From contig JAIXUD010000021.1 of NCBI GenBank assembly GCA_027483645.1, positions 186,001 to 250,000 on the forward strand: a DNA stretch of 64,000 bases. Direction: 5' to 3'. Positions 6,416 through 22,272 of the stretch are shown here, one piece after another. A program made the position numbers and the translations under genes. How positions within the stretch are numbered: the stretch's first letter is position 1; every line of letters begins with the position of its first letter. Source of the DNA: Sphingobacteriales bacterium (GTDB taxonomy: Bacteria; Bacteroidota; Bacteroidia; Chitinophagales; CAIOSU01). The notes below the pieces were generated by a model. That model was not told the origin of the DNA and did not search any database. It saw only the letters and a program-made list of their open reading frames with translations.

Positions 6416-6490
6416 CGGGTTTTCGACAAACGATACAATACGCAAACCCCGATAGCGTTTTTCTAGCAAATCTGAAAAACCCTACTCGTT

Positions 6491-6685
6491 ATGACCAAAG
6501 TATTGAGCATGGCCGCACTGGCCACTACCCTATTGCTTACCAGCACATCTTGCACCAAAAAGCATTGTATCACCTTCACCGATGCCAATGGCGTGGACTG
6601 TTGCGAAAAGTGCTTCGCCACCCAAAAACGCTTGAATGATTTTGTGGCAACCAATACCAAAATGTGCCCTGAAGTGTGTGATTGA
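6491..6685 (+). CDS. Tiny Cys-rich lipoprotein, 64 aa
   Basis: From ATG at 6491 there is a signal sequence of about 20 residues ending TSTSC, a plausible lipobox with Cys21 lipidated. The mature part is only about 44 residues and has five further Cys (KHC, DCCEKC, MCPEVC would include C26, C37, C38, C41 and later ones), which could form disulfides or bind metal. No family recognised. It follows menE by 75 bp. The opposite strand is also open here (6463-6798), but that product has no recognisable features. Confidence 0.6.
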   Translation: MTKVLSMAALATTLLLTSTSCTKKHCITFTDANGVDCCEKCFATQKRLNDFVATNTKMCPEVCD

Positions 6686-6731
6686 AGTATTAAATAACTC
6701 ATTAGAAGCACGTCATCGCAACAAAAATGGA

Positions 6732-7197
6732 CGTCATTGCGAATATTAATCGCGGCGCGGCACGTCCGGAAAAGGAGATGACATTTTTGCGGAAGCAAGC
6801 TGTCATCCTGAGCTTTTTGTCGAAGGGTGCCAGCGATTGCTAAGCGAGCCGAAGTTTTTCACGAAGGCAAGCCACGGACGAGCACTGCACTTGCAATTAG
6901 CCTAATATTCTTCGAAGCTAATAACCTCATCGTTACTCACTTTTGTTCTCTCACAAGATTTATGTCATAGGTAGGCCTACTTGCTCTTGCGGCTACCCAG
7001 TAAACTTCAATGGCCTGTGGCTACTTTTTCACTGCTTTTGCAGTAATCCCCTGCCAAAAGGAGTGGATTTAACCTTCCGATGAAATAGCCTTATTATATA
7101 CTTTTGAGTATTGGTCAGCGTACATCATTCTTCTTAGCATGGGATTGCTTCGTCATTTCACTTCGCGAAAAGCTCCGTTTCATTCCTCGCAATGACG
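6732..7197. repeat. Palindrome-ended intergenic repeat (long copy)
   Basis: The spacer 6686-7307 has no gene. It begins with CGTCATTGCGAA and ends with the inverse, CCTCGCAATGACG. Its right part (7046-7197) matches 27371-27521: CAATCCCCTGC..AGGAGT, then CATCATTCTT, GGGATTGCTTCG and the terminal CCTCGCAATGACG. The left part also holds CATCCTGAGC..GTCGAAGG, a motif of other intergenic repeats. It looks like a non-autonomous palindromic element. Confidence 0.6.
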
Positions 7198-7211
7198 TTC
7201 ATTTTGTTAAT

Positions 7212-7252
7212 AACATAAAAACAAGCAAGCCTCAACTTTCGTTGAGGCTTGC
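7212..7252 (-). terminator. Rho-independent terminator of the adhesin operon
   Basis: A perfect 12-bp stem GCAAGCCTCAAC/GTTGAGGCTTGC (7225-7236 with 7241-7252) with a 4-nt loop. On the minus strand it is followed by TTGTTTTTATG. It lies 55 bp beyond the stop of the PorP/SprF gene. Confidence 0.85.
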
Positions 7253-7307
7253 CATATAAACCTTACATTGTACTTTGTACTTCGTACATTGTATATCGTT
7301 GAATTCC

Positions 7308-8216
7308 TCAAAAATACCTCGGGCTCTTCTGCACAAGCACTTTCTCTACAAAGCCTGGGAATTTGGCGATGATGGTGAGCTCGTGGGAGCCGCTGTTATT
7401 GGTGCGCAATGCGCCAAAGTCGAAATCGAAGGAGTAGCTGGCCAAAACGTTTTTCACGATATAGACACCCAATAAAGCAGCCATATCATCAGTGTTGCGG
7501 TAGCTGGCACCTACCACCACGCGTTTGTTCCAAGTGGCACTCAAGTTTAAATCAACCTGCGAAATAAAGCCCGCACTACGGAAAAATACTGCTGGGCTCA
7601 ATTGCCACTTATCGGTCAATTTCCAATCATATTTAGCATGGGCGTAGTAGTGGCGAGGTGTTTTCCAAACATCGGAATTCCCTATTGATTGTTGCAAATG
7701 CGTAAACGACACACCCACAGTCAAGCCCTTACCGCTAAATTCCACCCCCAAACCGATATCAGGTTTCACCTGTCCATCGCCCACCATTAGCTGGCTTTGG
7801 TCGCCAGTTTGCTGGTAGCGCAGCTCGCTACCTTTCACATAGTTGTTGGCAATACCGAAGTTCAAGCCTGCGGAGATGTACATCCTGTCGCCCACGCGCT
7901 GGCGGTACGCATAGCCTAAGCGAACGCTAGTAGTGCGCTGCTTGCCCAGCATATCGTTTACCACGGTAAGGCCTACACCGCCACGCAGCTTAGGTATATA
8001 GCCATAAGCATTGAGTAATTGGGTTGATGGTGCCTCCTCGAAACCCACCCATTGTTGGCGGGCCAAAAGACCCACAGTAATACCATCGCTGTTGCCCGCG
8101 GTTGCTGGGTTGTACAGGTTGGTATGGTACATAAAGTGCGTAAACAACGCATCGTTTTGGGCAAAGCCAATAAACGGTAATAATGTTAGTATGGTAAGCA
8201 GTATCCTGGTCTTCAT
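7308..8216 (-). CDS. PorP/SprF family T9SS outer-membrane protein
   Basis: 302 aa with a signal peptide (1-19, GFAQ). The N-terminal FTHFMYHTNLYNPATAGN and later ARQQWVGFEEAP are hallmarks of the PorP/SprF family, followed by alternating beta strands of a 12-14-stranded barrel. In Flavobacterium johnsoniae, SprF is needed for SprB to reach the surface, and PorP/SprF paralogues often accompany type B cargo. This gene is last in an operon with two type B adhesins (5-bp gap from the PorE-like gene), so it probably serves their export or anchoring. It ends at a strong terminator. Confidence 0.9.
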   Translation of the reverse strand: MKTRILLTILTLLPFIGFAQNDALFTHFMYHTNLYNPATAGNSDGITVGLLARQQWVGFEEAPSTQLLNAYGYIPKLRGGVGLTVVNDMLGKQRTTSVRLGYAYRQRVGDRMYISAGLNFGIANNYVKGSELRYQQTGDQSQLMVGDGQVKPDIGLGVEFSGKGLTVGVSFTHLQQSIGNSDVWKTPRHYYAHAKYDWKLTDKWQLSPAVFFRSAGFISQVDLNLSATWNKRVVVGASYRNTDDMAALLGVYIVKNVLASYSFDFDFGALRTNNSGSHELTIIAKFPGFVEKVLVQKSPRYF

Positions 8217-8221
8217 GGCTC

Positions 8222-10105
8222 TTATTGGTTAACTACTTTAAAAGTGGTTCTACGGTTCTGTTGGTGTTCTTCTTCTGTTACGGCTTTCTTTACTAGCAAA
8301 GTGGTTTCGCCCCATCCTTTGCTGGTTAGGCGGGTTGGGTTGATGCCTTTGCTAATCAAATAATCCACTACCGATTTGGCACGCTCTTCTGATAAAGTGA
8401 GGTTGTATTGGTCGTCTCCCCTATCATCACTATGTGAGTTAATCATCACTTGCACCTCTGGCGAATCTTCTAGCAGTTTCGCCAGCTTATCCAAGTTGCC
8501 CAGCGATTCGGGCCTTAGTATCGCGCTATTGTAATCATAATAGATGTCATCAATGGTAATTTCCGTTTTCGGTATGCGCATCAGGGCAAAGTCGAAATCG
8601 TAACCCGTGGACTTAGAGAACTCTTTACTGTACAACTCACCTTGGGTACTCAACGTCCGCGAATCGCCGAAGTACTCTGGCAATATCACGTTGATTTTGT
8701 AATCCAAGTTTTTGTTGAGGGTAAAGCTGTAGTTACCGTTGGCATCGGTTAGGGTACTATCAACCGTGCCATCGCTGGCAGTCAATATTACCTTAACACC
8801 GCTCAATGGAGTCATGCCATCCACATCCTTTACGGTACCCTTTACGGTAATAAAAACGGGTGTCGTATAAAACGAATAGATATCATCCGAACCTTTGCCG
8901 CCATTCCGGTTGGAAGAGAAGTAACCCTCTTCCTTGTTCTTTCCGTGTACCAGCAAGAAGTCATCCGCATTGGAGTTGAACGGGGTGCGCATATTGGTAG
9001 GTTTGCTCCACTGGCCGTTACGTTTAATTGAAACAAACAAATCCAAGCCACCCATACCCACATGCCCGTTGCTGGAAAAGTACAAGGTGGTATCATTGGC
9101 ATAAACCGGGTAAGCTTCATCAAACTCTGTGTTGATGCCCTCCACGTTTACCGGGGCATGCCAGCCAAGGCCTTGGCGCTCTAGCAGCCAAATATCGCTG
9201 CCACCCTTGCCTTCTGCTTTGCGGCTGGTTACCCATAGCCAATTACCATCTTTCGATACGGTTGGGTGAACCATCTCCACCTGGTCGCCCGAAAATTGGA
9301 TAGGCTTTGGCTCGCTCCAAGTTTTAGCACCAGCATCGTAGCGGCTTTCCATCACGCGGCATTTTTCGCCTTTATCGCCGCTGCACTGGGAAAAATACGC
9401 AGTTTTAGTATCAGGGCTAAAGGTAAATACGCCATCGTTAAAAGCACTACTTACGCCACTTAACTGGCTAGGCTTATCCCAAGTTTTGTTTTCATTATTG
9501 TACTTCACCGCATAGAAGTGCGAAAACCCTTGCCCATCTACTTTGTAGGTTTTCGGGTCTCCGCCTTCTTCCATACGTGAAGAAGTGAAAATCACCTTAT
9601 CCTCAAAATAGTAAGCACCATAATCGCTCATCGAGGTGTTGAGCAATTGCTCATTAACCACGGTAAACAATGGCTGTGGGTCGTTCTTTACGCTCAAGGC
9701 AAAGTCTACATTGTTTTTCACCCGCAAGCCATCCTTATCATTAGGTTGCAGCGCTAAAAACTTATCCAACGATTCCTTTGCCTTGGCATACTCGCCCAAG
9801 TTCAACAATACCCTACCTTTTTGAAAATGCAGGTGGGGTAATGCGTATTGTGCGCCCTCGGCTTTGTTGTACCAGTCCAACGCCTCTTTGTATTGAAGCA
9901 AGTTGCGGTGGCTTTCACCCAAATTGAAAAACACTTCTGCATCTTTCTCTGGCTGTTTGCTCTTCTCCAAGTGCTTTTGGTAAAGCTCGATGGCGGTATA
10001 ATACTCTTTATGTTCAAAGGCTTGGTCGGCCAATTCTTTTTTTGATTGTCCCCAAACCGTGCAAACGGTAAGCAGCATCAATATGATGATAATTGTCGAT
10101 TTCAT
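8222..10105 (-). CDS. PorE-like TPR/PD40/OmpA envelope protein
   Basis: 627 aa: signal peptide 1-20; TPR units about 22-125; PD40/WD40-like beta-propeller repeats about 160-430 (FTFSPDTKTAYFSQ, YPVYANDTTLYFSSNG, GYFSSNRNGGKGSDDIY); a carboxypeptidase-regulatory-like domain about 437-500; and an OmpA-type peptidoglycan-binding domain about 530-627 (NSHSDDRGDDQYNLTLSEERAKSV). This is the domain order of PorE of Porphyromonas gingivalis, a periplasmic T9SS component. Bacteroidota carry several paralogues, so it need not be the core PorE. Between adhesin and PorP/SprF genes it probably ties the export or anchoring complex to peptidoglycan. Confidence 0.88.
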   Translation of the reverse strand: MKSTIIIILMLLTVCTVWGQSKKELADQAFEHKEYYTAIELYQKHLEKSKQPEKDAEVFFNLGESHRNLLQYKEALDWYNKAEGAQYALPHLHFQKGRVLLNLGEYAKAKESLDKFLALQPNDKDGLRVKNNVDFALSVKNDPQPLFTVVNEQLLNTSMSDYGAYYFEDKVIFTSSRMEEGGDPKTYKVDGQGFSHFYAVKYNNENKTWDKPSQLSGVSSAFNDGVFTFSPDTKTAYFSQCSGDKGEKCRVMESRYDAGAKTWSEPKPIQFSGDQVEMVHPTVSKDGNWLWVTSRKAEGKGGSDIWLLERQGLGWHAPVNVEGINTEFDEAYPVYANDTTLYFSSNGHVGMGGLDLFVSIKRNGQWSKPTNMRTPFNSNADDFLLVHGKNKEEGYFSSNRNGGKGSDDIYSFYTTPVFITVKGTVKDVDGMTPLSGVKVILTASDGTVDSTLTDANGNYSFTLNKNLDYKINVILPEYFGDSRTLSTQGELYSKEFSKSTGYDFDFALMRIPKTEITIDDIYYDYNSAILRPESLGNLDKLAKLLEDSPEVQVMINSHSDDRGDDQYNLTLSEERAKSVVDYLISKGINPTRLTSKGWGETTLLVKKAVTEEEHQQNRRTTFKVVNQ

Positions 10106-10124
10106 AGCTAGCTAGTTGAGGAGA

Positions 10125-10400
10125 TTAATAGTGAACCATTACTGAACCCTTCAAAACCTTGTCGGTGTCAGTAATATCCGGCACGCGCACAATGTAGAAG
10201 TAGGTACCCGGCGAAACCCTGTCGCCATTGAAGGTACCGTCCCAGCCATCTTTACCAGTGTACAGCTCTTGTCCCCAACGATTAACAATCACCAGTTCAA
10301 AGCCTTCCAAAAACAACTCGTTCCTGCCATCGCCGTTAGGGGTAAAGGCGTTCGGGTAATCAGTGACAACAACCGTAAGCTCCGTTTCCTCGCCAACGCA
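10125..10400 (-). other. Type B T9SS sorting domain of the 2103-aa adhesin
   Basis: This is the C-terminal segment of the adhesin, from about TPNGDGRNE to VLKGSVMVHY. The order FTPNGDG, NRWG, GWDGT, G.YFY.V is the CHU_C/type B signature. In F. johnsoniae, proteins of this type need a PorP/SprF partner, which is encoded downstream here. Confidence 0.85.
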
Positions 10401-13400
10401 ACTGCCATCAGTAGCAATCACCGAAATCACATCGCCATCGTTCAGCGAGCTGGAGCGCCAAGTGTTGATGCTATCAATCTGCACCGATACACCATTCAAG
10501 AACCATTCGTAAGACGAATAATCATCTGGCTCAGCAGTAGCTATCAATGCTTGGTTGATGAAGATGGTGTTATTGAGTGCATCACTAGTGAGTAACACAG
10601 TTGGCTGCTCGGCCACCTCAACGGTTACCGGTACACGGCCGGTAAGGCTACCGCAACCATTACTACTGGTTGCTTGCGCAAAGAAGGTGGTAGTGCTGGT
10701 AAGGTTGCCCGTTACTAGCGAGTTGCCCGTACCTACTTGGGTACCGCCGGTTGCCGCGTTCCACCAGGTAATGTTGCCACCATTGCTTGATGTTGCCGTA
10801 AGCGTAGTGCTTTCATTGAAACACACCGCGGGGTCGGTACCTTGTATAACTGGTGCCGAAGGAGCAGGCGATACCGTTACAGTTACCGGCAAGCGGCCAC
10901 CACTGTAGCGGCAACCATCGCTGTTAATTACCTCCACATAATAAGTGGTGGTAACCGCAGGCGCTACCGTAAGCGGCGAAACACCCAGTAAACTTCCACC
11001 AGTTTGGCTATCGAAAATGTTGTAGGTAATGTTGCTGCCACCGGTAGAGTTGCTGGCGGTTATCTCCGCATCGTCTCCTTCGCAAATAGTATCGCCACCT
11101 GTTACAATAATGGTTGGGGCGGTTGGGCTAGGATTTACGGTTACATTAAGGGTCTGCGCTGTTGAGCTGCCGCATGTATTAGTGGCAACTACGCTTACCA
11201 AGTAAGGGCCGCCACTGGTAGTCCAGTTTACGGTTACGGCATTGGTGCCTTGGCCGGTGGCAATAGTGCCGCCACCGCTTAGGGTCCAAGTATAACCGGT
11301 AGCATTGGCTACGGCAGGCACGCTGTAATTTTCGATACCTGGGCACACATTACCGTCGCCAGTAATGTTGCTAGGTTGCGCAGGCGCACCTGGGGTAATG
11401 GTAACGTTGATGGTGGATGCCGTGCTGGTACCGCAAGCATTGCCAGCAGTTACCGAAACGGTATAGTTGCCGGGGCCCGCAGTCCAATCAATCGTAACTG
11501 AGGTAGTACCTTGACCACCCGAAACAGCCCCACCAGAACTGACCGACCATGTATAGGTAGTAGCATCAGTAACGGCATTGATGCTATATGCCAAACCAGT
11601 ACCTTCACCTTCGCATATGCTATTTGGGCCATTTATTGCACCAGGTATAGCAGGTGGGCCAGGCTCTACGTTTACAGTATAAGTAGTTGGGCTGCTAGAG
11701 CCACAAGCATTATTCGCAACTACGCTCAAAATATATGGCCCGCCCGCGGTGGTCCAGTTTACGGTTAAGGTAGCAGTGCCTTGGCCGCCAGTGATGGTGC
11801 CGCCGCCGCTCAAGGTCCAAGTGTAACCTGTTGAATTAGGAACGGTGCTTACAGTGTAGCTTTGTGAGCCAGGGCAAGGGGTATCGTCTCCAGTGATGGT
11901 TGCCGCGCCAATTACTGGTGGGCCATCTACGGTTACATCAAGGGTAGCCACTGTGCCGTTTCCGCACAAGTTAGAAGGGGTTACTTCCAATGTGTAAGGT
12001 CCACCAGTGGTAGTCCAGTCAACAGTGATGCTGGCTGTGCCTTGGCCGGTTTGAATAGTACCGCCACCGGTTAAAGTCCAAGCATAGCTTGTGGCGCCAG
12101 TTACACCGCTTATCGTATAGGTTTGCGCCCCTGGACAAGGAGTAGCGCTGCCCACTATAGCTGGCGTGCCAGTTGGTGGGCCGGGGGTTACCGTAACTTG
12201 TATGCTCGATTGTGGGCTGCTTCCGCATTGGTTGTCGGCTGTTACGGCAACGGTATAGGTGCCGCTTACCGATGCCCAATCAACATCAATGCTGGTGGTG
12301 CCTTGGCCACTCACTATGGTGCCGCCTACGCCTACCGTCCAAGTATAGCCTGATGTAGCTGGAACTGCAGGGATGCTAAAAGTTTCAGTTCCTGGACAAA
12401 CCGCAGTGGTACCGCTGATATTGCCTGGAGTAGCTGGATTGGCTGGCAATACTACTACTGTGAGGGTGGTAGCGGTGCTGCTTCCGCACTGGTTTTGTGC
12501 AGTTACTGATACGGTCCAAGTGCCTTGGGTAGTCCAGTTGATGCCTGCCGTTGCAGTGCCTTGGCCAGTGGCAATAGTGCCACCACCGCTTACGCTCCAA
12601 GTATACCCTGTAGCGCCTGGTACTGCATCGGCAGTATAGCTTTCAGTGCCGTTACACACGGGGGTGTTACCTGTAATGCTGGCCGGTGCTGGTGGATTTA
12701 GCGGCAATACTGTTACACTCAACGTAGCTGCACCGCCGTTACCGCACTGGTTGCTTGGCACCACGGAAATTGTATATGGTCCGCCTGCTGCTGTCCAGTC
12801 GATAGTGATACCGGCAGTTCCCTGGCCTGCGGTGATGGTTCCACCACCGGTTACGGTCCAAGCATAGTTTGTTGCAGCGGGTAAGGTAGTAATGCTATAG
12901 TTTTCTGAGCCTGGGCAAGCACTGGTAGTACCTACAATAGTACCTGCATTGCCTGGGTTAGCTGGCAATACAGTCACCGTGCGGGTTGATGCTGCGCTGG
13001 CACCGCAAATGTTGCTAGCGGTTACTGATATCGTCCAAGTTCCGGCAGTGGTCCAGTCAATGTCCACACCGGTAGTGCCTTGGCCAGCGCTGATGCTGCC
13101 ACCACTGCTGATACTCCAAGTGTAGCTGCTAGCACCACTTACTGCAGTTATGCTGTAGGCTTCGGTGCCTGGGCAAGCAGGGCTGGTGCCTGCAATGGCA
13201 CCTGGTACTGGCGGGTTTGCTGGCAAAACTTGTACACTCAATGTAGTTGGGGTGCTGCTGCCGCAAATATTGTTCGCAGTAACTGATACGGTCCAGGTAC
13301 CTGCGGTAGTCCAATTGATACCCGCTGTTGCAGTACCTTGCCCGCTGGCAATGGCTCCGCCACCGCTTACGCTCCAAGTATAGCTGCTGGCACCGGCAAC

Positions 13401-16400
13401 GGTAGCGGCAGTGTAGCTTTGGGTGCTGATACAAACCGGATCAGGACCTACAATGTTAGCAGGGGGTAATATGGTACCTGCCAATACGGTTACTTGCAAA
13501 TCCGAAGAAGTACCGTTTCCGCATACGTTGGTAGGGATAACTGATACGGTGTAGGGTCCGCCTGGGGTGGCCCAAGTTACGGTTACGTTGCTAGTGCCTT
13601 GGCCAGTGGTAATAGTACCACCGCCGCTCACGCTCCAAGTATACCCGGTTGCACCTGCTACAGCGCCTACGCTATATGCTTGGGCGCCCGCGCATGCCGT
13701 GGTTTGGCCGGTTATTGGGCCAGGTACTGGTGGTACGGTGGTGCTTACGGTAACTTGTGTAGTTGCTGGGCTGCTGGTTCCGCAAGCGTTGGTAGCTGTT
13801 ACCGATACGGTATGCGTTCCGGCCGCAGTCCAGTTTACGGTGAAACTGGTGCTATTAGCGCCCGATACAGGTGTACCGCCACCACTAATGCTCCAAGTGT
13901 AGCTGGCTGCATTTGCCACTGGGCTAATGGTATAGGTTTGGTTGCCCAAAGTAGAACATGCCGTTGTGCTGCCAGTAATGGCGCCCGGCGTTGCCGGAGC
14001 TGCACCCAAAACGGTTACAGTGATAGGTGTGGCGCTCACGTTGCCGCAACCGTTTGATGCGGTTACTGATATGGTATGGGTACCGGCTGTGCTCCAGTTA
14101 ATGCTGATGTTGGCATTGCCTTGGCCGGTAATGCTTCCGCCGCCGCTCACGCTCCAAGTATAAGTGGTTGCACCTGCTACTGTTGGTACGCTATATGGTT
14201 GACTACCTAAGCATACGTTGGTTTGTCCGTTAATGGCTCCGATGGTGGTTGGTGGGCCTGGCTGCACGTTTACAGTAAGTGTACGCGCGGTGCTGGTGCC
14301 GCAACTATTGGTTGCCGTTACCGATATGGTGTAAGGTCCGCCACTGGTGCTCCATACCACGCTAGCGGTGGTGCCGCTGCCGGTTATGGTTCCGCCGCCG
14401 CTTATGCTCCAATTGTAACTAGTGGCATTGGTTACCGCAGCTATGCTGTAGCCTTCGGTACCGGGGCAGGGGTTAATTAAGCCAGTGATTGCTCCTGGCT
14501 GTGCTGGGGCTGGTGGGTCTACCACCACCGAAAGGGTACGTGCCGTGCTGGTGCCACAAGTATTGGTTGCAGTTACCGAAACGGTATAGGTACCTGGGGT
14601 GGTCCAATTGATGTTAATGGAAGTTCCACTACCAGTAATAGCACCGCCACCGCTTACGCTCCAAGTGTAGCTGGTTGCGTTGGCAACTGCGGATATGCTG
14701 TAGCCTTGGCTGCCAAGGCAAGTAGGTGTAGCGCCTGTAATAGCTCCCGGTTGCAGGGGTGCACCTGGGAATACGGTAATGGTAATGGGCGTGCGGGTAG
14801 TGCTACGGCAAGAAGAGTAATCCGTTTCGAAGGTTTCGACATAGTAGGTAGTGGTAGTGGCTGGGCTTACTAATCTAGGAGTGTTGCCCAATGTGGTACC
14901 GCCGCTGCTTTGGGTATATACTGCATAGGTACTACCCGGTGTTGGGCCACTTGCATTGATGGTGGTTGATGCCCCAGCGCAGAAATTATTGTTGGTAGCG
15001 GTTACGTTAGTAGCGGCCGCGGGCGGTATACAAACTTTACAGGTAATGTACCTATCGGTACTAGGGGTAGTAATTACCACAGTTATTGGTGATGAAACGA
15101 GGCTGGAAACCACCAACGGCGTAAACGAAACCAGCGCGGGATTATAGCTACTACGGCTCAATGAAATGGAACCTTCAGGACACACCACGTTATTTAGTTG
15201 GCCATTTTTATTGGTTTTGATGAGCTCATAATCAAAAGCGTTTCCACCTGTAAGATCTCCCGTACCCATGGTGATAATATAATAAGCCGAATCAGCAACA
15301 CCTTGATAGCCTTTAGGTAATAGGCTGGCCGGTAATGTATTAGGTGGTGGTGGGTAAGACCGCTGAAAAGTGATTGCACCGTTTGTTGGATTAATCTTTA
15401 ACAAAGCAGTAGACAATGAAAATGATGGAGGGAAAATACTGATGTTTAAGTAGTTACCCAAAAGACCATATTGCCCGTCATTTGTAAAAAATAGCTCAGT
15501 TCCAAAAGCCTCATTTATACTAAAACCTCCTTGTGCGTACCTATTACCTGTGGTAATGGCGCCTGCCGCGGTCATCTGTACATAGCTCATGCCAGTACCA
15601 TCGGCCCCTACTATCAACACGTTGGTAGCGTTCAGTCGCTTCACGGCTTCTGCCCCTTGACTACTAGTGGGGAACCTAAATGTCCACTGGCGTGTACCTG
15701 TTAAATTGGTTTTTAAAGCAATTGCATCCGTTGGTGCATCCTCTCCGGCACTTTCACTTACTGAGCCTACAAAAATGTATCCATCAGATACCTCTGCAAC
15801 ATCAGTAAAAAAGTGGTTGTTTTGAAAAGCGGTAGTAGTAAAGAAAACATTACCCCACTCCAGCGTACCTGCGGAGTTTACTTTCACACAGAACATATTG
15901 GTAGAGTCTTGCCTTACTAAGGCCCCTGCTCCATCAGGGTCTACCCTACTGATCGAACCAGCTACTACAAAACCCCCATCCGAAGTTTCCAGTATCCTGT
16001 TGCCCGAGCTGGTACCACCTGTTACGTTATAGGTTTGAGCCCAGGTTACGTTACCTAAGGCGTCCATCCTCATAATCATCAAGTTAGAGCCGTTAGAGCC
16101 TGTCACCACATACCCCCCAGCGGTTACCCTCTTAAGGTCATTGAAGTTAGTAGCTAACGAGAGTGCATTGTATCGCCTGCTCCACTGTATAAAACCAGCA
16201 GTATCCACCTCTGTCAATGTGCCCGATATAGGAAAGAAGTTGGTATTGGTTCCGGCAAATACCGGGTTACCTGTGGCGGAAGGTACCAAGCCGCCTGGCA
16301 AATCCAAGACGGAAATGTCATAATTAATCCGGAAAGGACTTGGTGATTGCTGGGCGTGTAACGCAAATGTGCATAACAACAGCACTGGCAATGCCATGGC

Positions 16401-16436
16401 GGCAATGCCTCTTCTTAAATAATGGGCCATTCTCAT
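10125..16436 (-). CDS. Giant T9SS type B surface adhesin with 14 PKD/Ig-like repeats
   Basis: 2103 aa. Signal peptide about 1-28. Residues about 35-450 are propeller-like repeats (GYVVTGSNGSNLMIMRMDALGNVTW, DGGFVVAGS), then one CHU-type Ig domain. Fourteen tandem repeats of about 86 aa follow: each starts PGxITG, has Cys, a GATxYTWSVSGGG core, GQGT..W and a second Cys in NxCG. Two more Ig-like domains precede the C-terminal type B sorting domain (YPNAFTPNGDGRNELF...IVNRWGQELYTG..GWDG), the 'gliding motility-associated' domain. Export is through T9SS. Role: a long surface filament for adhesion or movement. The repeats are similar at DNA level (about 258 bp period), so copy number may vary. Start M1 or M3. 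Confidence 0.92.
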   Translation of the reverse strand: MRMAHYLRRGIAAMALPVLLLCTFALHAQQSPSPFRINYDISVLDLPGGLVPSATGNPVFAGTNTNFFPISGTLTEVDTAGFIQWSRRYNALSLATNFNDLKRVTAGGYVVTGSNGSNLMIMRMDALGNVTWAQTYNVTGGTSSGNRILETSDGGFVVAGSISRVDPDGAGALVRQDSTNMFCVKVNSAGTLEWGNVFFTTTAFQNNHFFTDVAEVSDGYIFVGSVSESAGEDAPTDAIALKTNLTGTRQWTFRFPTSSQGAEAVKRLNATNVLIVGADGTGMSYVQMTAAGAITTGNRYAQGGFSINEAFGTELFFTNDGQYGLLGNYLNISIFPPSFSLSTALLKINPTNGAITFQRSYPPPPNTLPASLLPKGYQGVADSAYYIITMGTGDLTGGNAFDYELIKTNKNGQLNNVVCPEGSISLSRSSYNPALVSFTPLVVSSLVSSPITVVITTPSTDRYITCKVCIPPAAATNVTATNNNFCAGASTTINASGPTPGSTYAVYTQSSGGTTLGNTPRLVSPATTTTYYVETFETDYSSCRSTTRTPITITVFPGAPLQPGAITGATPTCLGSQGYSISAVANATSYTWSVSGGGAITGSGTSININWTTPGTYTVSVTATNTCGTSTARTLSVVVDPPAPAQPGAITGLINPCPGTEGYSIAAVTNATSYNWSISGGGTITGSGTTASVVWSTSGGPYTISVTATNSCGTSTARTLTVNVQPGPPTTIGAINGQTNVCLGSQPYSVPTVAGATTYTWSVSGGGSITGQGNANISINWSTAGTHTISVTASNGCGNVSATPITVTVLGAAPATPGAITGSTTACSTLGNQTYTISPVANAASYTWSISGGGTPVSGANSTSFTVNWTAAGTHTVSVTATNACGTSSPATTQVTVSTTVPPVPGPITGQTTACAGAQAYSVGAVAGATGYTWSVSGGGTITTGQGTSNVTVTWATPGGPYTVSVIPTNVCGNGTSSDLQVTVLAGTILPPANIVGPDPVCISTQSYTAATVAGASSYTWSVSGGGAIASGQGTATAGINWTTAGTWTVSVTANNICGSSTPTTLSVQVLPANPPVPGAIAGTSPACPGTEAYSITAVSGASSYTWSISSGGSISAGQGTTGVDIDWTTAGTWTISVTASNICGASAASTRTVTVLPANPGNAGTIVGTTSACPGSENYSITTLPAATNYAWTVTGGGTITAGQGTAGITIDWTAAGGPYTISVVPSNQCGNGGAATLSVTVLPLNPPAPASITGNTPVCNGTESYTADAVPGATGYTWSVSGGGTIATGQGTATAGINWTTQGTWTVSVTAQNQCGSSTATTLTVVVLPANPATPGNISGTTAVCPGTETFSIPAVPATSGYTWTVGVGGTIVSGQGTTSIDVDWASVSGTYTVAVTADNQCGSSPQSSIQVTVTPGPPTGTPAIVGSATPCPGAQTYTISGVTGATSYAWTLTGGGTIQTGQGTASITVDWTTTGGPYTLEVTPSNLCGNGTVATLDVTVDGPPVIGAATITGDDTPCPGSQSYTVSTVPNSTGYTWTLSGGGTITGGQGTATLTVNWTTAGGPYILSVVANNACGSSSPTTYTVNVEPGPPAIPGAINGPNSICEGEGTGLAYSINAVTDATTYTWSVSSGGAVSGGQGTTSVTIDWTAGPGNYTVSVTAGNACGTSTASTINVTITPGAPAQPSNITGDGNVCPGIENYSVPAVANATGYTWTLSGGGTIATGQGTNAVTVNWTTSGGPYLVSVVATNTCGSSTAQTLNVTVNPSPTAPTIIVTGGDTICEGDDAEITASNSTGGSNITYNIFDSQTGGSLLGVSPLTVAPAVTTTYYVEVINSDGCRYSGGRLPVTVTVSPAPSAPVIQGTDPAVCFNESTTLTATSSNGGNITWWNAATGGTQVGTGNSLVTGNLTSTTTFFAQATSSNGCGSLTGRVPVTVEVAEQPTVLLTSDALNNTIFINQALIATAEPDDYSSYEWFLNGVSVQIDSINTWRSSSLNDGDVISVIATDGSCVGEETELTVVVTDYPNAFTPNGDGRNELFLEGFELVIVNRWGQELYTGKDGWDGTFNGDRVSPGTYFYIVRVPDITDTDKVLKGSVMVHY
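11130..14760 (-). repeat. 14 tandem ~258-bp repeats coding PKD/Ig-like units
   Basis: Each unit carries, on the minus strand, codons for GATxYTWSVSGGG about 258 bp apart; on the plus strand, phrases such as GTGCCTTGGCC and CCACCGCTTACGCTCC recur at this period. Frame is kept throughout, so the array expands or shrinks by whole domains. Overlapping open frames on the other strand are repeat shadows. Confidence 0.85.
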
Positions 16437-16588
16437 AACCTGGTCTGGGGATTCTGGTTGGTTAGTTTAGTTGTTTCTCTCGGTTGTTATGTGCTCAATC
16501 TGTAAAGCAACGGTAGGGTGCGTTTTAGAAAACACCTTACCATTTTCTTCATATTATAGGGTCAGGTCATTGAAAGCGTTAAATTAAA

Positions 16589-19500
16589 TTATTTCAGTAA
16601 TAATACACTGCCTTTTTTGCGCTGTGCAGGAATTTTTGTGTTTAAAAACTCCACATACATATCCCATACGTAAACTCCGTCTTGCGCAGCTACGCCTTTG
16701 TACGTACCATCCCAGTATCCATCCTTATCATCGCTCTCAAACACCTTCTCTCCCCAGCGGTTGTGCACCCTAAATACTAGGCGCTTCACCCCAGCATAGT
16801 ACACCCGGAAAACCTCGTTGGTACCGTCGCCATTAGGGCTGAATGCATTGGGCAATATCGCAAAATATTCCCCTGGCAATACCGTAACCGTTACCGTATC
16901 ATTGGCAGAGCATCCTAGTGCTGTAGTATAAGTAAGCACATAAATAGTGGTGCTATCTGGCGACAAACTTGGGTTGGCACAATCATCACATGTCAAGAAA
17001 TCCGTCGGGGTCCAAGTAAAGGCTCCTCCGCTGGCACCGTTCACCGAACCGTTGAGCTGTATAATGCTCTCGTATTGAATGATAGTAGTATCCACGCCAG
17101 CATCAACGGTAAAGATTGGGGTTACATCCACCAGTACCTCATCGGTAGCAGTACAGCCACCAGCATTAGTAACTGTTACACTATAAGTACCACTTGTAAG
17201 TGCCGAAATGGTTTGAGTTGTATCGCCCGTGCTCCATACATAATTATCGGCTGCACCAGCATCCAGCACTGCATCTTGGCCTTCGCAAAGCTCCCAATCG
17301 GCACCCAAATCCACCGCTAGAGGTGCAGGGTCAGTTAGGGTTATGGTGCCAAATGCTCTGCAATTGGTTTGATCGGTCACCGTTACGCCATAGGTACCTG
17401 CTATTAAATTGGTAATGCTAGTTGTAGTTGCTCCATTCGACCAAACACAGATCACTGGAGCTGTCCCGCCAGAAATAATGGCTTCGGCAGCACCGTCGCT
17501 TAATCCAGTACAGGTAGGGTCAGTGCCGACGGTTGACAACAAAATGGTATTGTTAGCTTCCGAAACCACTACTTGCAACGTAGTATCGCAGCCATTTACG
17601 TCTCTGGCCGTTACACTGTAGTTACCGCCAGCAACCGTAAAGGTATTGCTAGGGCCAAATACACCACTGTTGAGGCTATACTCAAATGGCGCAGTACCCG
17701 AGGCAGCAACTACCGTAACGGTAATGTTGCCATCAGCAGCGCCACAACTAGCGGCACTGGTAGTTGCAGAAGCATCGAGGCTACAGCATTGCGGGCCTGC
17801 TGCTATTACTATAAAGCTAGTAACTGCACAACCTAGGTCATCAGTCACGGTCACGGTATAGTTGCCCGGTGCTAGGTCGGTTAGGTCCTCGGTGGTTTCG
17901 GCATTGCTCCATACGATAGTATACGGTGGGGTACCACCACTAATGGTCATGTTTGCCGCGCCATCCTCATCGCCCAAGCAGGTTTCAGCAGTAGCAACTA
18001 TGGTGTCAATTACTGGAGCATTGGGGTTGCTTAGGTTGATGGTGCTATCGCGCTCGCAGTTAGGGTAAGCAAGGTCGGTAACGGTTACGGTATATGTACC
18101 CGCTGGTATCGCACCATTCAATGCCGTACTAGGCGAATTGCTCCAGGCATAGGTATAAGGGCCAGTACCGGTAACGTTTACCACCTCAGCCGAGCCATTG
18201 TTTGCCCCGCAGCTTGGGTTTACTAATGCAATCCCAAAATTCACATTGCAACAGTTTGGCCCAGCAGGTACTACTATAGCACCTGTTACTTGGCAACCGT
18301 TGTCGTCGGTTACGGTTACCGTGTAGTTGCCTGGTGCTAATCCTGATGGGTCTTCCACGTTCTGTCCGTTACTCCAAATAGGGTCATAAGGTGCAGTTCC
18401 TCCGCTTATAGTTAAATCTATGGAGCCATCGTTATCGCCTAAGCAGGTTTCGGCAGTAGCAGTTATGTTGTTAATTATTGGGGCATTAGGGTTCACCAAA
18501 GTTATGGTGGTATCGCGTTGGCAGTTTGGATATCGGGCATCGGTAATGGTAACGGTGTAGATACCGGCTGGCTGGCTAGTTATGCTTTGCGAGGTTTGGC
18601 TACCACCCCACAAGAAGGTGTAGCCAGGGTGACCGATATTGGAAATGGTAACTGCACCGTTGCTTTGTGCGCAAGCCGGGTTGGTACCCACAATATCGTA
18701 CGTAATATTGCAGCAATTAGGGCCTGCAGCCACGTTCACGTTGCCCACAGCCTCGCAGCCCAATGCATCGGTTACGGTTACCGAATAATTTCCAGGGGTA
18801 AGACCCGCAACACTAGCGGTAGTTTGGGTAGGATTCGTGTTCCATTCATAACTCAATAAACCAGAACCACCACTAGCGGTAACTGTTGCCGTGCCATCAT
18901 CATCACCTAAGCAGGTTTCGTTCGTGGCTGCAATGTTAGTTATTGTCGGTGCATTAGCACTACTTATTGATATGGTAGTATCGCGGTCGCAACCTTGGGT
19001 AATATCAGTAACGGTAACACTGTAAGTACCTGCTCCTAAGCCCGATGCAGTATTGGTGGTACTGCTACTTCCCGTCCATGCATAAGTATAATTGCCCGCA
19101 CCCGATGTTACGGTTATGGTAATGGAACCGTTGGTGCCGCCACAAGTTGGGGCTATGCTGCTGGCGGTAAAGGCAAGAGTACAACAGACTGGCCCAGCAT
19201 TGAGCGTGGTATTGCTGGTTGCACTGCAACCGTTAGCATCAGTTACGGTAACTGAATAAGGGCCGGGAGTCAAATTGGTTCGTGTGGCGCCGCTGCCAGC
19301 AGGTGTCCAATTATAGGTTAGTGAGCCGGTTCCGCCACTTGCGTTTACGGCAATGCTACCACTGTTTTGCCCTGCACACAACTCTGGTGTCGGGGTAATG
19401 CTATTGATTATCGGGTTGCTAGTAGTAGTAAGTACTATTGTAGTATCGCGCTGGCAGTTAGGCTGGCCATTGTCGCGTATAGTTATGGTATAGCTACCTG

Positions 19501-21229
19501 CTTGTAATCCGGTTCTAGATGCACCCAACACCCCACCTGGCGCCCAAGTATAGGTATACGGCCCCACGCCTGCGGTAGGGGTTATAGTAATGCTACCATT
19601 ACTTTGGCCACAAGTTGGATTGGTGCGTGCGCCTGTAAAGGCCAAGTTGCAGCAGCTAGGCAGTACGGTAACAGCTACTTGATCAGTAACAGTTACGCAG
19701 CCTGCCGTATCGGTAGCAGAAAGAGTGTAGATAGTTGTACCCGCTGATGGGCATACTTGTGGGGTAAGCGTAGTGGAACCCGTCATATTTGTAGTAGGGC
19801 TCCAGGTAATGTCGGCTGGGTAGCTTATCTCGGGGTCGTTAAAAGTAATATTCCAGTTAAAGAAAAAACCTGTTCCGAAAGCTAACGTAGGAGCTAGCCT
19901 CACCCTAAGCGACCATACCCCGTTGGAAGAACACCCATTAAGGTTTGTAAATGGTTGATTGGGCGAAAAGCTACCGGTATATGGGGTTGCCCCCGTAGTG
20001 ATGCTCGGCCCTGCCAGCACAAAGCAAGTATTGGTGATGGTATTATTAGCACTAATAGTGTTTTCAGGCAATAAAAGCAAAACTGTGCCATCAGGACATA
20101 TTAACTCAAACCGCAGGTTACGGGTAGTAAAGTTGGTTGGGGTAAACGGTGGAACGATACCAAAGCCAAAGTAAGTAAGAGAGCCTATACATACCCTTTC
20201 AATTACTACCGGATTAATGGTAAGGTTGTTAAGTCCAGCTACATTAATGTTAATTACCGCTGGTGTACCAGGCTCCAATACTTGAAACTCGTTGTTAGAG
20301 TAAGTGCGGGTTTGCTGAGCGCTTTTAATAACCTTCGCAGTACCGTTTAGGTTAGCGCAGGTACCTGGGCAAATAGAAGTATCGTTGCCAGCATTAACCT
20401 GTATGGTAGGGTTTGCTACCGTCAATCTTACAGTATCTCTGCAAACAGTAGTGCCATTAGTCATTACCACTACATAGTCAGTAGTAACTTGTGGGCACAC
20501 TCGGTTTGGGCTAGCGCCACCAGAGCTACCTTGCGGGTATGAGTACCCATCATGGGGGTAAGATATTACATAAGTTGGGTCATTGTAATAAATGGCAACG
20601 TTATCAATACCCCAGTGGTCATAATCAGCACCCGAATCGGCATCTTGAAACCAACGTATCTTAGTATTTGGGCCAATAGCACCCGGGGGCAATTGAAAGC
20701 ACCAGTTGCGCCAGTTTACCAAATCTGGGTCGTTACCCCCATTGGGGTCGAAGTAGTTAATAGTAATCCAAGTGGCGCCGTTGTTAGTTGAATATTGCAA
20801 AAATACACCCTCTTGCGGTTCATCAGGGCCTTCGCAGGGTGCGGCATCCCCTTGTTCTGCGAAAAGCATATCGAAACAAACCGTTACGCCGGAAGTAGCC
20901 GTGGAGAAATTGTAAGCATTGGTTTCTAATGCCCGTGGAACTGCCGATGCGCTACCCATCCATAAGTGTGGCGTGCCATTTACCCCCCCAGGGCTGCAAG
21001 GGTTGGTATAAGTGGCCTGTTGGGTAAAGGCCCAACCTGATGGCGAGCCACTATTAAAATTTTCGCTAAACACCTGTTGACCTTGGCCTTGGCCAAAAGC
21101 CGTAAGCGTAACGCAATCGCCGCAAACACTGCTCTGTGGCGAGGCTGATACGGATACATTACATTGCCCAAACGCTTGTGCAGCAACAAACAGCAGTGAG
21201 CAGGCTAGTAGTAGTGATTTGTGAGCCAT
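16589..21229 (-). CDS. Large T9SS type B adhesin with SprB repeats
   Basis: 1546 aa. Signal peptide 1-21 (QAFGQ). Residues about 50-230 look like a reelin/lectin-type jelly roll (FSENFNSGSPSGW..QQATYTNPC..WGIDNVAIYYND). About 310-470 resembles a proprotein-convertase P domain (LRFELICPDGT..NGVWSLRV). Ten SprB-type half repeats follow in five A/B pairs; every A unit starts with a vicinal CC and every B unit has ETCLGDxDG or a variant. An Ig-like part precedes the type B sorting domain (LPNAFSPNGDGTNEVF..HNRWGEKVFES..YWDGTYKG). It is transcribed 15 bp after the small secreted protein. SprB-like proteins are mobile surface adhesins in gliding species; gliding itself cannot be read from this window. 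Confidence 0.92.
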   Translation of the reverse strand: MAHKSLLLACSLLFVAAQAFGQCNVSVSASPQSSVCGDCVTLTAFGQGQGQQVFSENFNSGSPSGWAFTQQATYTNPCSPGGVNGTPHLWMGSASAVPRALETNAYNFSTATSGVTVCFDMLFAEQGDAAPCEGPDEPQEGVFLQYSTNNGATWITINYFDPNGGNDPDLVNWRNWCFQLPPGAIGPNTKIRWFQDADSGADYDHWGIDNVAIYYNDPTYVISYPHDGYSYPQGSSGGASPNRVCPQVTTDYVVVMTNGTTVCRDTVRLTVANPTIQVNAGNDTSICPGTCANLNGTAKVIKSAQQTRTYSNNEFQVLEPGTPAVININVAGLNNLTINPVVIERVCIGSLTYFGFGIVPPFTPTNFTTRNLRFELICPDGTVLLLLPENTISANNTITNTCFVLAGPSITTGATPYTGSFSPNQPFTNLNGCSSNGVWSLRVRLAPTLAFGTGFFFNWNITFNDPEISYPADITWSPTTNMTGSTTLTPQVCPSAGTTIYTLSATDTAGCVTVTDQVAVTVLPSCCNLAFTGARTNPTCGQSNGSITITPTAGVGPYTYTWAPGGVLGASRTGLQAGSYTITIRDNGQPNCQRDTTIVLTTTSNPIINSITPTPELCAGQNSGSIAVNASGGTGSLTYNWTPAGSGATRTNLTPGPYSVTVTDANGCSATSNTTLNAGPVCCTLAFTASSIAPTCGGTNGSITITVTSGAGNYTYAWTGSSSTTNTASGLGAGTYSVTVTDITQGCDRDTTISISSANAPTITNIAATNETCLGDDDGTATVTASGGSGLLSYEWNTNPTQTTASVAGLTPGNYSVTVTDALGCEAVGNVNVAAGPNCCNITYDIVGTNPACAQSNGAVTISNIGHPGYTFLWGGSQTSQSITSQPAGIYTVTITDARYPNCQRDTTITLVNPNAPIINNITATAETCLGDNDGSIDLTISGGTAPYDPIWSNGQNVEDPSGLAPGNYTVTVTDDNGCQVTGAIVVPAGPNCCNVNFGIALVNPSCGANNGSAEVVNVTGTGPYTYAWSNSPSTALNGAIPAGTYTVTVTDLAYPNCERDSTINLSNPNAPVIDTIVATAETCLGDEDGAANMTISGGTPPYTIVWSNAETTEDLTDLAPGNYTVTVTDDLGCAVTSFIVIAAGPQCCSLDASATTSAASCGAADGNITVTVVAASGTAPFEYSLNSGVFGPSNTFTVAGGNYSVTARDVNGCDTTLQVVVSEANNTILLSTVGTDPTCTGLSDGAAEAIISGGTAPVICVWSNGATTTSITNLIAGTYGVTVTDQTNCRAFGTITLTDPAPLAVDLGADWELCEGQDAVLDAGAADNYVWSTGDTTQTISALTSGTYSVTVTNAGGCTATDEVLVDVTPIFTVDAGVDTTIIQYESIIQLNGSVNGASGGAFTWTPTDFLTCDDCANPSLSPDSTTIYVLTYTTALGCSANDTVTVTVLPGEYFAILPNAFSPNGDGTNEVFRVYYAGVKRLVFRVHNRWGEKVFESDDKDGYWDGTYKGVAAQDGVYVWDMYVEFLNTKIPAQRKKGSVLLLK

Positions 21230-21244
21230 GGGGAGAAGATTTTT

Positions 21245-21667
21245 TTAGTTCTGGGTCACTTTAATGTTCACCAAATCAAATGCAGTCAATACGGATTGTG
21301 AGGTGCCGTCAAGCATCTTCACGAAAATGTATAGCCTTTTGTCTTTGAGGCCGCAACTGCCTTCTAGTACTTCTCCGGGCTTGAGGGTAACTACAAAGGT
21401 ATTCTCCGCGCTTGGCGCGTTAGCAGGTTTATTATTATAAGCTATTTGCTTATGATAGCTTATCGTAATGGTAGCTTGGGTGTGGTTGGTAAAGCGCAGA
21501 TAAATATCCTGCGTGTGGATGCCCACCTCGGGGCGGTGGCAATCAAAATAGCGGTACTCAATAGTGGCTATTTGGTCATCGTAATAATTCTTCCAGTTCG
21601 TTTGTGCTAACGAATGGAACGATGTAAGCAGTGCCCCTATGAGCACTGTAAACAGCAGTTTCAGCAT
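21245..21667 (-). CDS. Small secreted protein, first gene of adhesin operon
   Basis: 140 aa from ATG at 21667. Signal peptide 1-21 (SLAQ), then a beta-rich domain of about 118 residues with two Cys (FDCHRPE and EGSCGLK) that could pair. No family recognised. A 15-bp gap to the 1546-aa adhesin gene makes co-transcription very likely, and it would be the first gene of the operon ending at 7308. It could be a periplasmic or surface accessory of the adhesins, but that is positional inference. Confidence 0.75.
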   Translation of the reverse strand: MLKLLFTVLIGALLTSFHSLAQTNWKNYYDDQIATIEYRYFDCHRPEVGIHTQDIYLRFTNHTQATITISYHKQIAYNNKPANAPSAENTFVVTLKPGEVLEGSCGLKDKRLYIFVKMLDGTSQSVLTAFDLVNIKVTQN

Positions 21668-22272
21668 GGTAGTTGTTGGTTCTTGCGTTAATTAACCTGT
21701 TTCTAATGTTAAGCAATTAGACGGGCAGTGCTAATTTTGCGATAAGTTAATGCATATTACTAAATTAACCTAATGACTGTTAGGCGCAATTGTGTATTAA
21801 TAGTTCACTATACTCCTAAAACCTTGGTACTTATTAGCATTTGGTTATCATAAGCGTGTGCAAAAATATTTTATGAATAACTGCATATTTGAAAGCTTAG
21901 GGGGTGGATTGTGTACCAGAAGGGAAATTAGGACTGGCTTGCAATCGCAAAGCAGGGTAACACGCCTTATTTGCAATTATTGGCTATTTCTATCCCATAC
22001 TATTTTTTTATTAATTCATGACGGTATAAAAGCCTTGCCAATGTTTGGACTTGATAGGTGGTATGTAAGGAATGCAAATCCGCAGGCTCGGTCATTCGGT
22101 TGTGAACATCGGAAGGGGCGGGTAATAACGCCATCAATTTACTTACAGCTAAACTGGCTTGATTCACTTAAAAAACTTACAGCATCTTTGTAAATGATAT
22201 TGCCTGAGCAGTGGGTAAGCATGTTGAATTTCGCAAGGGAGGAAAGGCTGAATAACTATTAATCGAATTTTA
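21668..22272. other. Non-coding spacer between adhesin operon and orphan gene
   Basis: The 605-bp spacer must hold the promoter of the leftward adhesin operon. It is AT-rich near 21700-21860. An inverted REP-like copy lies at 22070-22124. A 111-codon open frame (21858-22193) runs through that repeat and is not believed. Confidence 0.55.
22070..22124 (-). repeat. REP-like element, inverted copy (R5)
   Basis: Read on the minus strand it gives CGCCCCTTCCGATGTTCACA, then CCGAATGACCGAGCC and GCGGATTTGCATTCC: hairpin 1 plus the first arm of hairpin 2, slightly decayed. It faces the plus-strand copy at 22771-22835, and the pair brackets the orphan gene 22273-22704. Confidence 0.6.

Follow-up and report, generated by a model that had tools for sequence, protein, structure and literature searches.

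The systems closest to the locus analyzed here come from two bacteria. In Porphyromonas gingivalis, a complex of PG1035, PorP and PorE has been shown, and in Flavobacterium johnsoniae, six porP-like genes adjoin porE-like genes; the same source postulates that nonmobile type B proteins of the type IX secretion system (T9SS) are anchored to the cell wall via PorP-PorE (passages of PMC9143113). Five F. johnsoniae operons that combine a PorE homologue with a type B substrate and a carrier have also been described, and the C-terminal domain (CTD) of Fjoh_3952 was found to be static (passages of PMC12618676). Here we examine a run of five genes with two adhesins, a PorE-like protein and a PorP/SprF protein in a 64,000-nucleotide (nt) stretch of DNA, hereinafter the window, from a Sphingobacteriales bacterium (Chitinophagales; GCA_027483645.1, JAIXUD010000021.1:186,001-250,000; coordinates of the run are those of the window). 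An initial annotation of this DNA proposed a dedicated, peptidoglycan-tied unit. The anchoring part of this proposal gains support from the results below (peptidoglycan-binding residues that are kept, a conserved gene trio, and gene fusions) but is not a new idea, given that a PorP/PorE unit tying a type B adhesin to the wall is already published (PMC9143113, PMC12618676, in the passages cited).

As the annotation had it, the five genes lie on one strand, with gaps of 15, 152, 19 and 5 bp, and end in a strong terminator (fold z = -5.33, with 0 of 200 shuffles equally stable). Read 5' to 3' on the minus strand, the run and its flanking signals are (CHU_C groups I and II are those of the CTD tree below; aa, amino acids):

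21668..21868, minus strand: region upstream of gene 1, with a genus-conserved block holding CCTAA-N6-TTAGG (alignment of four genus members)
21245..21667, minus strand: gene 1 (module A), 140 aa, predicted Ig-like beta-sandwich (AlphaFold2, AF2), signal-peptide-like start by eye, without CHU_C
16589..21229, minus strand: gene 2 (module A), 1546-aa type B adhesin with a Reelin-like N-terminal region, 9 SprB stretches and a group II CHU_C domain (Pfam)
16437..16588, minus strand: 152-bp gap, the widest of the run, at the boundary of modules A and B
10125..16436, minus strand: gene 3 (module B), 2103-aa type B adhesin with 14 PKD_6 stretches, Ig_7 domains and a group I CHU_C domain (Pfam)
8222..10105, minus strand: gene 4 (module B), 627-aa PorE-like protein with TPR, PD40 propeller, CarboxypepD_reg and OmpA C-terminal domains (Pfam)
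7308..8216, minus strand: gene 5 (module B), 302-aa PorP/SprF carrier barrel with the tail KSPRYF (PF11751, TIGR03519)
7253-7224, minus strand: intrinsic terminator, 13-bp stem and T-run (terminator scan and RNA fold)

The gene identities proposed in the annotation were also recovered by domain searches: CHU_C (PF13585) is found at the C-termini of both adhesins (44.0 and 57.1 bits, cut-off 27), which score 34.2 and 32.6 bits with TIGR04131, the type B model, just under its cut-off of 35; gene 5 belongs to the PorP/SprF carrier family (PF11751, 211 bits, cut-off 22.3; TIGR03519, 217.1 bits, cut-off 90.55); gene 4 carries an OmpA domain; and the secreted product of gene 1, left unassigned in the annotation, has no Pfam or NCBIfam match. 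Judging by gene neighborhoods across genomes, the run is a composite of two adhesin modules placed end to end, module A (gene 1 and the SprB-repeat adhesin) and module B (the PKD adhesin, the PorE-like protein and PorP). We consider it probable that the PorP and PorE-like proteins fix the PKD adhesin and that another carrier takes the SprB-type adhesin. The points that are new here are the composite nature of the run, the module of gene 1 and its adhesin, and the PorP-OmpA fusions described below.

Two modules, joined and apart

All five genes occur together in the window genome (G000) and its relatives G002, G003 and G004 (L166-L168; G and L numbers denote genomes and loci), and the same five genes are split across contig ends in G001; L050, L051, L052 and L053 were taken to be the same assemblies as G004, G001, G002 and G003 and were not treated as extra evidence. 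Module B is found apart from module A in loci L054-L059, where the PKD adhesin, the PorE-like protein (46-50% identical) and PorP are conserved as a trio, with no CHU_C gene within 1.4-4.9 kb upstream. The same trio is present in L199 of genome G013 (~49% identity; the adhesin gene is truncated where the piece ends). Adhesin, PorE-like protein and PorP are encoded and conserved together in the window, L050-L060 and L199. Conversely, among 15 gene-1-linked loci beyond the genus, 12 are informative, with at least 5.6 kb past the adhesin (L164, L308 and L310 are not, due to contig or piece ends), and none of the 12 has a PorP or PorE-like gene within the 5.6-14 kb available at each (a 21-bit OmpA-type match ~12 kb away in L163 was not counted); the carrier of module A outside the genus must therefore lie elsewhere. 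G013 carries both modules unlinked, on different contigs (module A at C2:765590, with the single gene-1 match of this genome; module B at C1:151302-156219, ~150 kb from the nearer contig end).

Gene 1 belongs to a conserved family, with two Cys residues invariant in nine homologues, and its AF2 model is an Ig-like sandwich (pLDDT 86.1); a structural search retrieved the generic Ig-like sandwich (best Z 7.2, no Foldseek match at E <=0.001) and no specific relative. Homologues are found in 24 of 198 genomes of the order. All 19 matches above 70 bits in these 198 genomes lie directly upstream of a homologous adhesin N-terminal region, a count that omits six weak matches (<40 bits, in 5 genomes): L314, L315 and L317 precede a large protein in which no CHU_C was seen, L316 and L318 have no large protein behind them, and L298 is at a contig end. 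The N-terminal 480 aa of the SprB-repeat adhesin are conserved among its homologues (the AF2 model of this region is weak, pLDDT 70.2, pTM 0.46), and in the reverse test, gene 1 is alongside in 18 of the 22 loci with an adhesin N-terminus at >=200 bits; the dependence of gene 1 on the adhesin is thus stricter than that of the adhesin on gene 1. Having no CTD, the gene 1 product should remain in the periplasm, and because of the strict adjacency, our guess is that it acts as a chaperone or subunit for the adhesin N-terminal region. Full-text search of the open-licence literature found nothing on point for T9SS partners of this kind. In one locus (L310:1-6364), a single gene 1 is followed by two tandem copies of its linked adhesin.

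Terminator-like sites across the region are about as numerous as in shuffles (16 vs 17.5), the site at 7253-7224 being the strongest. The gap at the module boundary is 87-95 bp in three relatives from the genus, compared with 152 bp here, and its conservation is limited to the last ~40 nt ahead of the PKD adhesin start codon. A hairpin in the 152-bp gap was tried as a candidate and found unconvincing (z -1.60, with equal stability in 15 of 200 shuffles; that segment is missing in the relatives), and sigma-70-type promoter scans performed at chance level (27 found vs 23.5 expected). The conserved block ahead of gene 1 is likely a promoter or operator of the unit, and since it is long, with the boundary conserved in its last ~40 nt alone, a single main transcription start before gene 1 is favored by the alignment.

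These data bear on the alternative that survives best, namely, that the modules share neither function nor transcript and became neighbors by chance in the ancestor of the genus. Each module does stand alone elsewhere, and the gap between them is the widest of the run and varies from 87 to 152 bp. Against this, the join is kept in the members of the genus where it can be read, the genes share a strand with a terminator seen at the end only, and the long conserved block precedes gene 1 alone; chance joining is accordingly possible but rather unlikely.

Probable carriers of the two adhesins

In a tree of 33 CTDs, which included 11 of the 18 readable CTDs of gene-1-linked adhesins, a branch with 99/97 support separates group I (10 rows) from group II together with all 11 gene-1-linked CTDs. 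The CTD of the PKD adhesin falls with those of group I carriers, and that of the SprB-type adhesin is on the group II side. When 19 CTDs from the window genome were added (one of which duplicates a row of the first tree), the group I set stayed closed off from the SprB-type CTD (97/81); L142 joins group I, L158 lies near it with weak support, and the rest are on the opposite side, the nearest own-genome neighbor of the SprB-type CTD being L157 (C10:240882). A tree of 24 PorPs divides in the same way (98/95) and places the window PorP in group I. All 14 adhesin-PorP pairs from the window genome lie on matching sides of the two trees, L043 being a long branch in both; the chance of such a match, with 6 and 8 pairs per side, is 1 in 3003 for random pairs and blind naming, and the naming was not blind.

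The distance profiles of CTDs and PorPs agree overall (Mantel r 0.80 for 61 pairs, which include L050-L053, and 0.68 for 118 pairs, which exclude them). For the SprB-repeat adhesin, the profile compared with that of the window PorP gives rho -0.88 within the genome and 0.06 in the wide set. Prediction of the carrier class from nearest neighbors was correct for 106 of the 118 pairs, and for 61 of 74 after removal of search-biased loci; in both sets, the five nearest neighbors of the SprB-adhesin CTD all belong to the Cys class. In the own-plus-order set, the CTD of the PKD adhesin has as its closest neighbor L199, the one Cys-less case among its nearest five. Because distance profile and neighbors give little for the PKD adhesin, its pairing with the window PorP draws on tree side, conservation and adjacency. 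Taken together, the PKD adhesin is likely the cognate partner of the window PorP, with a CTD on the same side of the trees, whereas the SprB-repeat adhesin, with its CTD on the other side, is disfavored in this role.

The initial annotation suggested that one PorP/SprF might serve two filaments. Under this alternative, the operon is one unit with a single carrier for two type B proteins. The five-gene order is indeed kept in the genus, and crosstalk is on record: in F. johnsoniae, one carrier serves three orphan substrates with non-identical CTDs (passages of PMC12618676). The trees disagree for the SprB-type adhesin, however: the two CTDs lie on opposite sides of the 99/97 branch, mirrored by the PorP tree; moreover, at all 12 informative loci beyond the genus, module A lacks a nearby PorP, and module B exists without module A. 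We therefore regard a shared carrier as unlikely.

A probable wall tie and related loci

The PorE model NF052230 matches the 627-aa protein with 411.3 bits, under the curated cut-off of 600, and because of this shortfall, we label it PorE-like and not PorE, although the PorE domain order (TPR, propeller, carboxypeptidase-regulatory-like, OmpA_C) is present in the Pfam matches. With an E of 3e-24, its OmpA domain hits 6TOP, a structure of the PorE domain in complex with a peptidoglycan stem peptide, and the Asp, Asn and Arg that hold peptidoglycan are kept: D560, N568 and R575 align with D576, N584 and R591 of P. gingivalis PorE (contacts from passages of PMC7192894). No clear lipobox was seen by eye in the PorE-like protein, and the window PorP has no sequence match among solved structures. 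Since the contact residues are kept, the trio is conserved alone, and PorP-OmpA fusions exist in the order, module B is likely a peptidoglycan-tied anchoring unit for the PKD adhesin.

These fusions were detected in a scan for fused domains that covered PorPs longer than 420 aa plus one shorter protein. At least five of 110 PorPs from the order, in four genomes, are single-chain PorP-OmpA fusions:

L172:3963-6371, PorP-OmpA fusion
L191:3952-5388, PorP-OmpA fusion
L249:4033-5754, PorP-OmpA fusion
L250:3943-5745, PorP-OmpA fusion
L260:3467-5059, PorP-OmpA fusion

None of the five has a PorE neighbor or a tail Cys, four adjoin a CHU_C gene, and three contain TSP_3 matches. The fusions lend independent support to a physical link between PorP and peptidoglycan, which in module B would be made by two proteins; full-text search of the open-licence literature found nothing on point for them.

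The window genome (4.27 Mb, 23 contigs) yields 22 PorP matches and 37 CHU_C matches over the cut-off, along with 13 PorE-model matches, some of which are pieces of one gene. The own-genome PorP set has 21 rows (C10:401753 is unscored, and the L034 row represents the latter half of a broken gene), of which seven have a PorE-like neighbor (the window, L032, L035, L036, L037, L039 and L040). The comparison with paralogous loci of the same genome, which the annotation had called for, thus shows that the combination is not rare, nor is the set of two adhesins with PorE and PorP unique, because L037 (1273-10718; PorP-PorE-adhesin-adhesin) likewise carries two CHU_C genes. Across 14 further genomes from the order, a PorE-like neighbor is present for 30 of 110 PorPs (the set was drawn from 113 of 146 matches, the lowest-scoring ones and two of G028 being left out, with 110 passing the filters); a phylum-wide sample, too poor in PorP-bearing genomes, and a class-wide set confined to the top-scoring matches were not used. 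The usual order is adhesin-PorP-PorE; the order adhesin-PorE-PorP is common to the window, L050-L060 and L199.

Several other loci stand out. Two PorPs of the window genome (L028:7877-9334 and L027:8024-9526) are 485-500 aa long with a C-terminal extension; L028 has a weak SPOR match of 22.0 bits, just over the cut-off of 21. The broken PorP gene (L034:7101-8126, G000:C2:97157-98065) is interrupted by an in-frame stop codon and adjoins an intact 1398-aa adhesin with a CTD outside group I. Tandem pairs of PorE-like genes lie in an apparently conserved gene cluster in L061, L062, L063, L065, L066, L068 and L088, with no PorP or CHU_C within the stretches examined.

The weakest alternative, in which the window PorP and PorE-like proteins are a general T9SS scaffold linking the PorK/N ring to the cell wall and the PKD adhesin is a mere cap (a role speculated for PG1035 in P. 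gingivalis), would fit the placement of the window PorP as sister to the GldK-adjoining PorP (95/94 in the PorP tree) and the rank of its PorE-like protein among the top two of the genome by PorE-model score (411 and 412 bits), but is improbable, given another PorP beside GldK (L026, L130), a stand-alone PorE-like gene at C1:183254-185125 with no PorP in the stretch examined, and the co-occurrence of the trio with a large adhesin in relatives.

Fate of the adhesins and comparison with known systems

Cysteines at the C-terminal tail of SprF link to GldK by a disulfide, and PorG of P. gingivalis depends on a single Cys for its function (passages of PMC12635249). The window PorP contains no Cys anywhere and hence has no gliding-type Cys-X-Cys tail; with zero Cys, a bond of the SprF-GldK type is impossible. 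GldK of the window genome has one Cys besides that of the lipobox, presumably the invariant one, and GldJ is encoded as well, so that gliding adhesins may exist in this bacterium. Among the group II PorPs of the window genome in the PorP tree, 9 of 10 carry a Cys that is placed four residues from the end, in a context other than Cys-X-Cys. In the PorE-seeded named loci, a set picked by similarity to the window PorE-like protein, there is no Cys among the PorP tails listed.

Single Cys residues four positions from the C-terminus (CPRF and the like) are present in many PorPs of the window genome and of the order sample. GldJ and the sortase PorU flank one own-genome PorP, whose tail is ECPGVLNF (L031, G000:C2:253500-272000; 6246-12474), and CP-tailed PorPs of this type, without a CHU_C neighbor, recur in other genomes of the order.

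The mechanism that we favor for the two modules would proceed as follows. The PKD adhesin would cross the outer membrane via the common type IX translocon of the cell; the description of the run as self-contained in the initial annotation is not supported, with GldK, GldJ and PorU encoded elsewhere in the genome. The group I CTD of this adhesin would then pass to, and stay bound by, the PorP/SprF barrel, whose gene is the second one downstream, and the PorE-like protein would tie the barrel, from the periplasmic side, to peptidoglycan via its OmpA domain. Being Cys-less, the window PorP should be static, without the gliding drive through the SprF-GldK disulfide. For the group II CTD of the SprB-repeat adhesin, the expected carrier is a group II PorP from elsewhere in the genome, and the gene 1 product probably assists or binds the conserved N-terminal region of this adhesin. 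A stronger version, which we put forward as speculation with little confidence, is that one operon feeds two destinations: the PKD adhesin would be bolted to the wall by the Cys-less PorP and the PorE-like protein, and the SprB-repeat adhesin would go to a Cys-tailed PorP elsewhere and the moving GldK track, with gene 1 as a dedicated periplasmic partner, a T9SS accessory factor new to the literature searched, for adhesins without an adjoining carrier gene.

Several observations, along with the F. johnsoniae crosstalk, weigh against separate carriers and a static PKD adhesin. Retention of the five-gene set in the genus suggests some joint use, and neither a conserved promoter nor a terminator was found at the module boundary by genus alignment and folding. 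No gene 1 was detected beside four of the 22 strong adhesin N-termini, namely, those of G127 and G109 and the second copies of G006 and G085. Groups I and II received their names with the sequences already in view. In the approximately unbiased (AU) test, the union of group I with the gene-1-linked CTDs is rejected at a modest p of 0.0255, and the narrower union of the two CTD types of the window is not rejected (p 0.288). The profile of the PKD CTD against the window PorP gives rho -0.15 within the genome and 0.43 in the wide set. Of the five nearest neighbors of this CTD in the own-plus-order set, four (L235, L179, L278 and L262) belong to the Cys class. Finally, a rule that PorE-linked carriers are devoid of a tail Cys and unlinked ones have it was rejected in the order: PorPs with and without Cys number 5 and 2 among the PorE-linked vs 7 and 7 among the unlinked in the window genome (p 0.64), and 15 and 15 vs 44 and 36 in the 14 order genomes (p 0.67). 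Because PorE linkage is not associated with the absence of a tail Cys, "static because PorE-linked" is no general rule.

If the two-module reading holds, gene neighborhood alone can misassign carriers in T9SS genomes, where an adhesin may precede a carrier gene that is probably not its own, and trees can pair sorting domains with carriers. The module of gene 1 and its adhesin provides a concrete set of carrier-less type B adhesins for seeking the carrier and a periplasmic partner, and the PorP-OmpA fusions offer simple sequence support for the published idea of a wall-fixed carrier.

Among known systems, the PG1035-PorP-PorE complex resembles module B, judged here by genes alone, in that a type B protein sits on a PorP barrel held by a peptidoglycan-binding protein with TPR, propeller, CarbReg and OmpA domains (passages of PMC9143113); in addition, the window PorP lies closest to the PorP linked to GldK, and the window PorE-like protein is among the two nearest to PorE. 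The window differs in that a 2103-aa PKD adhesin is encoded in one operon with both partners, that the PorE-like protein falls under the PorE model cut-off, and that this protein lacks a clear lipobox by eye, whereas PorE is published as a lipoprotein, as far as the cited passages go. The PorE-like/SprF-like/type B loci of F. johnsoniae, such as Fjoh_3952-3951-3950, combine the same three gene kinds in one operon, for which a static, wall-anchored complex has been proposed, but their order is adhesin-PorP-PorE (passages of PMC12618676) and not adhesin-PorE-PorP, and the window has an extra two-gene module in front. In the sprC-sprD-sprB-sprF operon of F. johnsoniae (Rhodes et al. 2011, in the parts drawn on here), SprF has a Cys-X-Cys tail for GldK, unlike the Cys-less window PorP, and the window SprB-repeat adhesin has no PorP directly behind it; what the two loci share is a SprB-repeat type B adhesin together with PorP/SprF and accessory genes.

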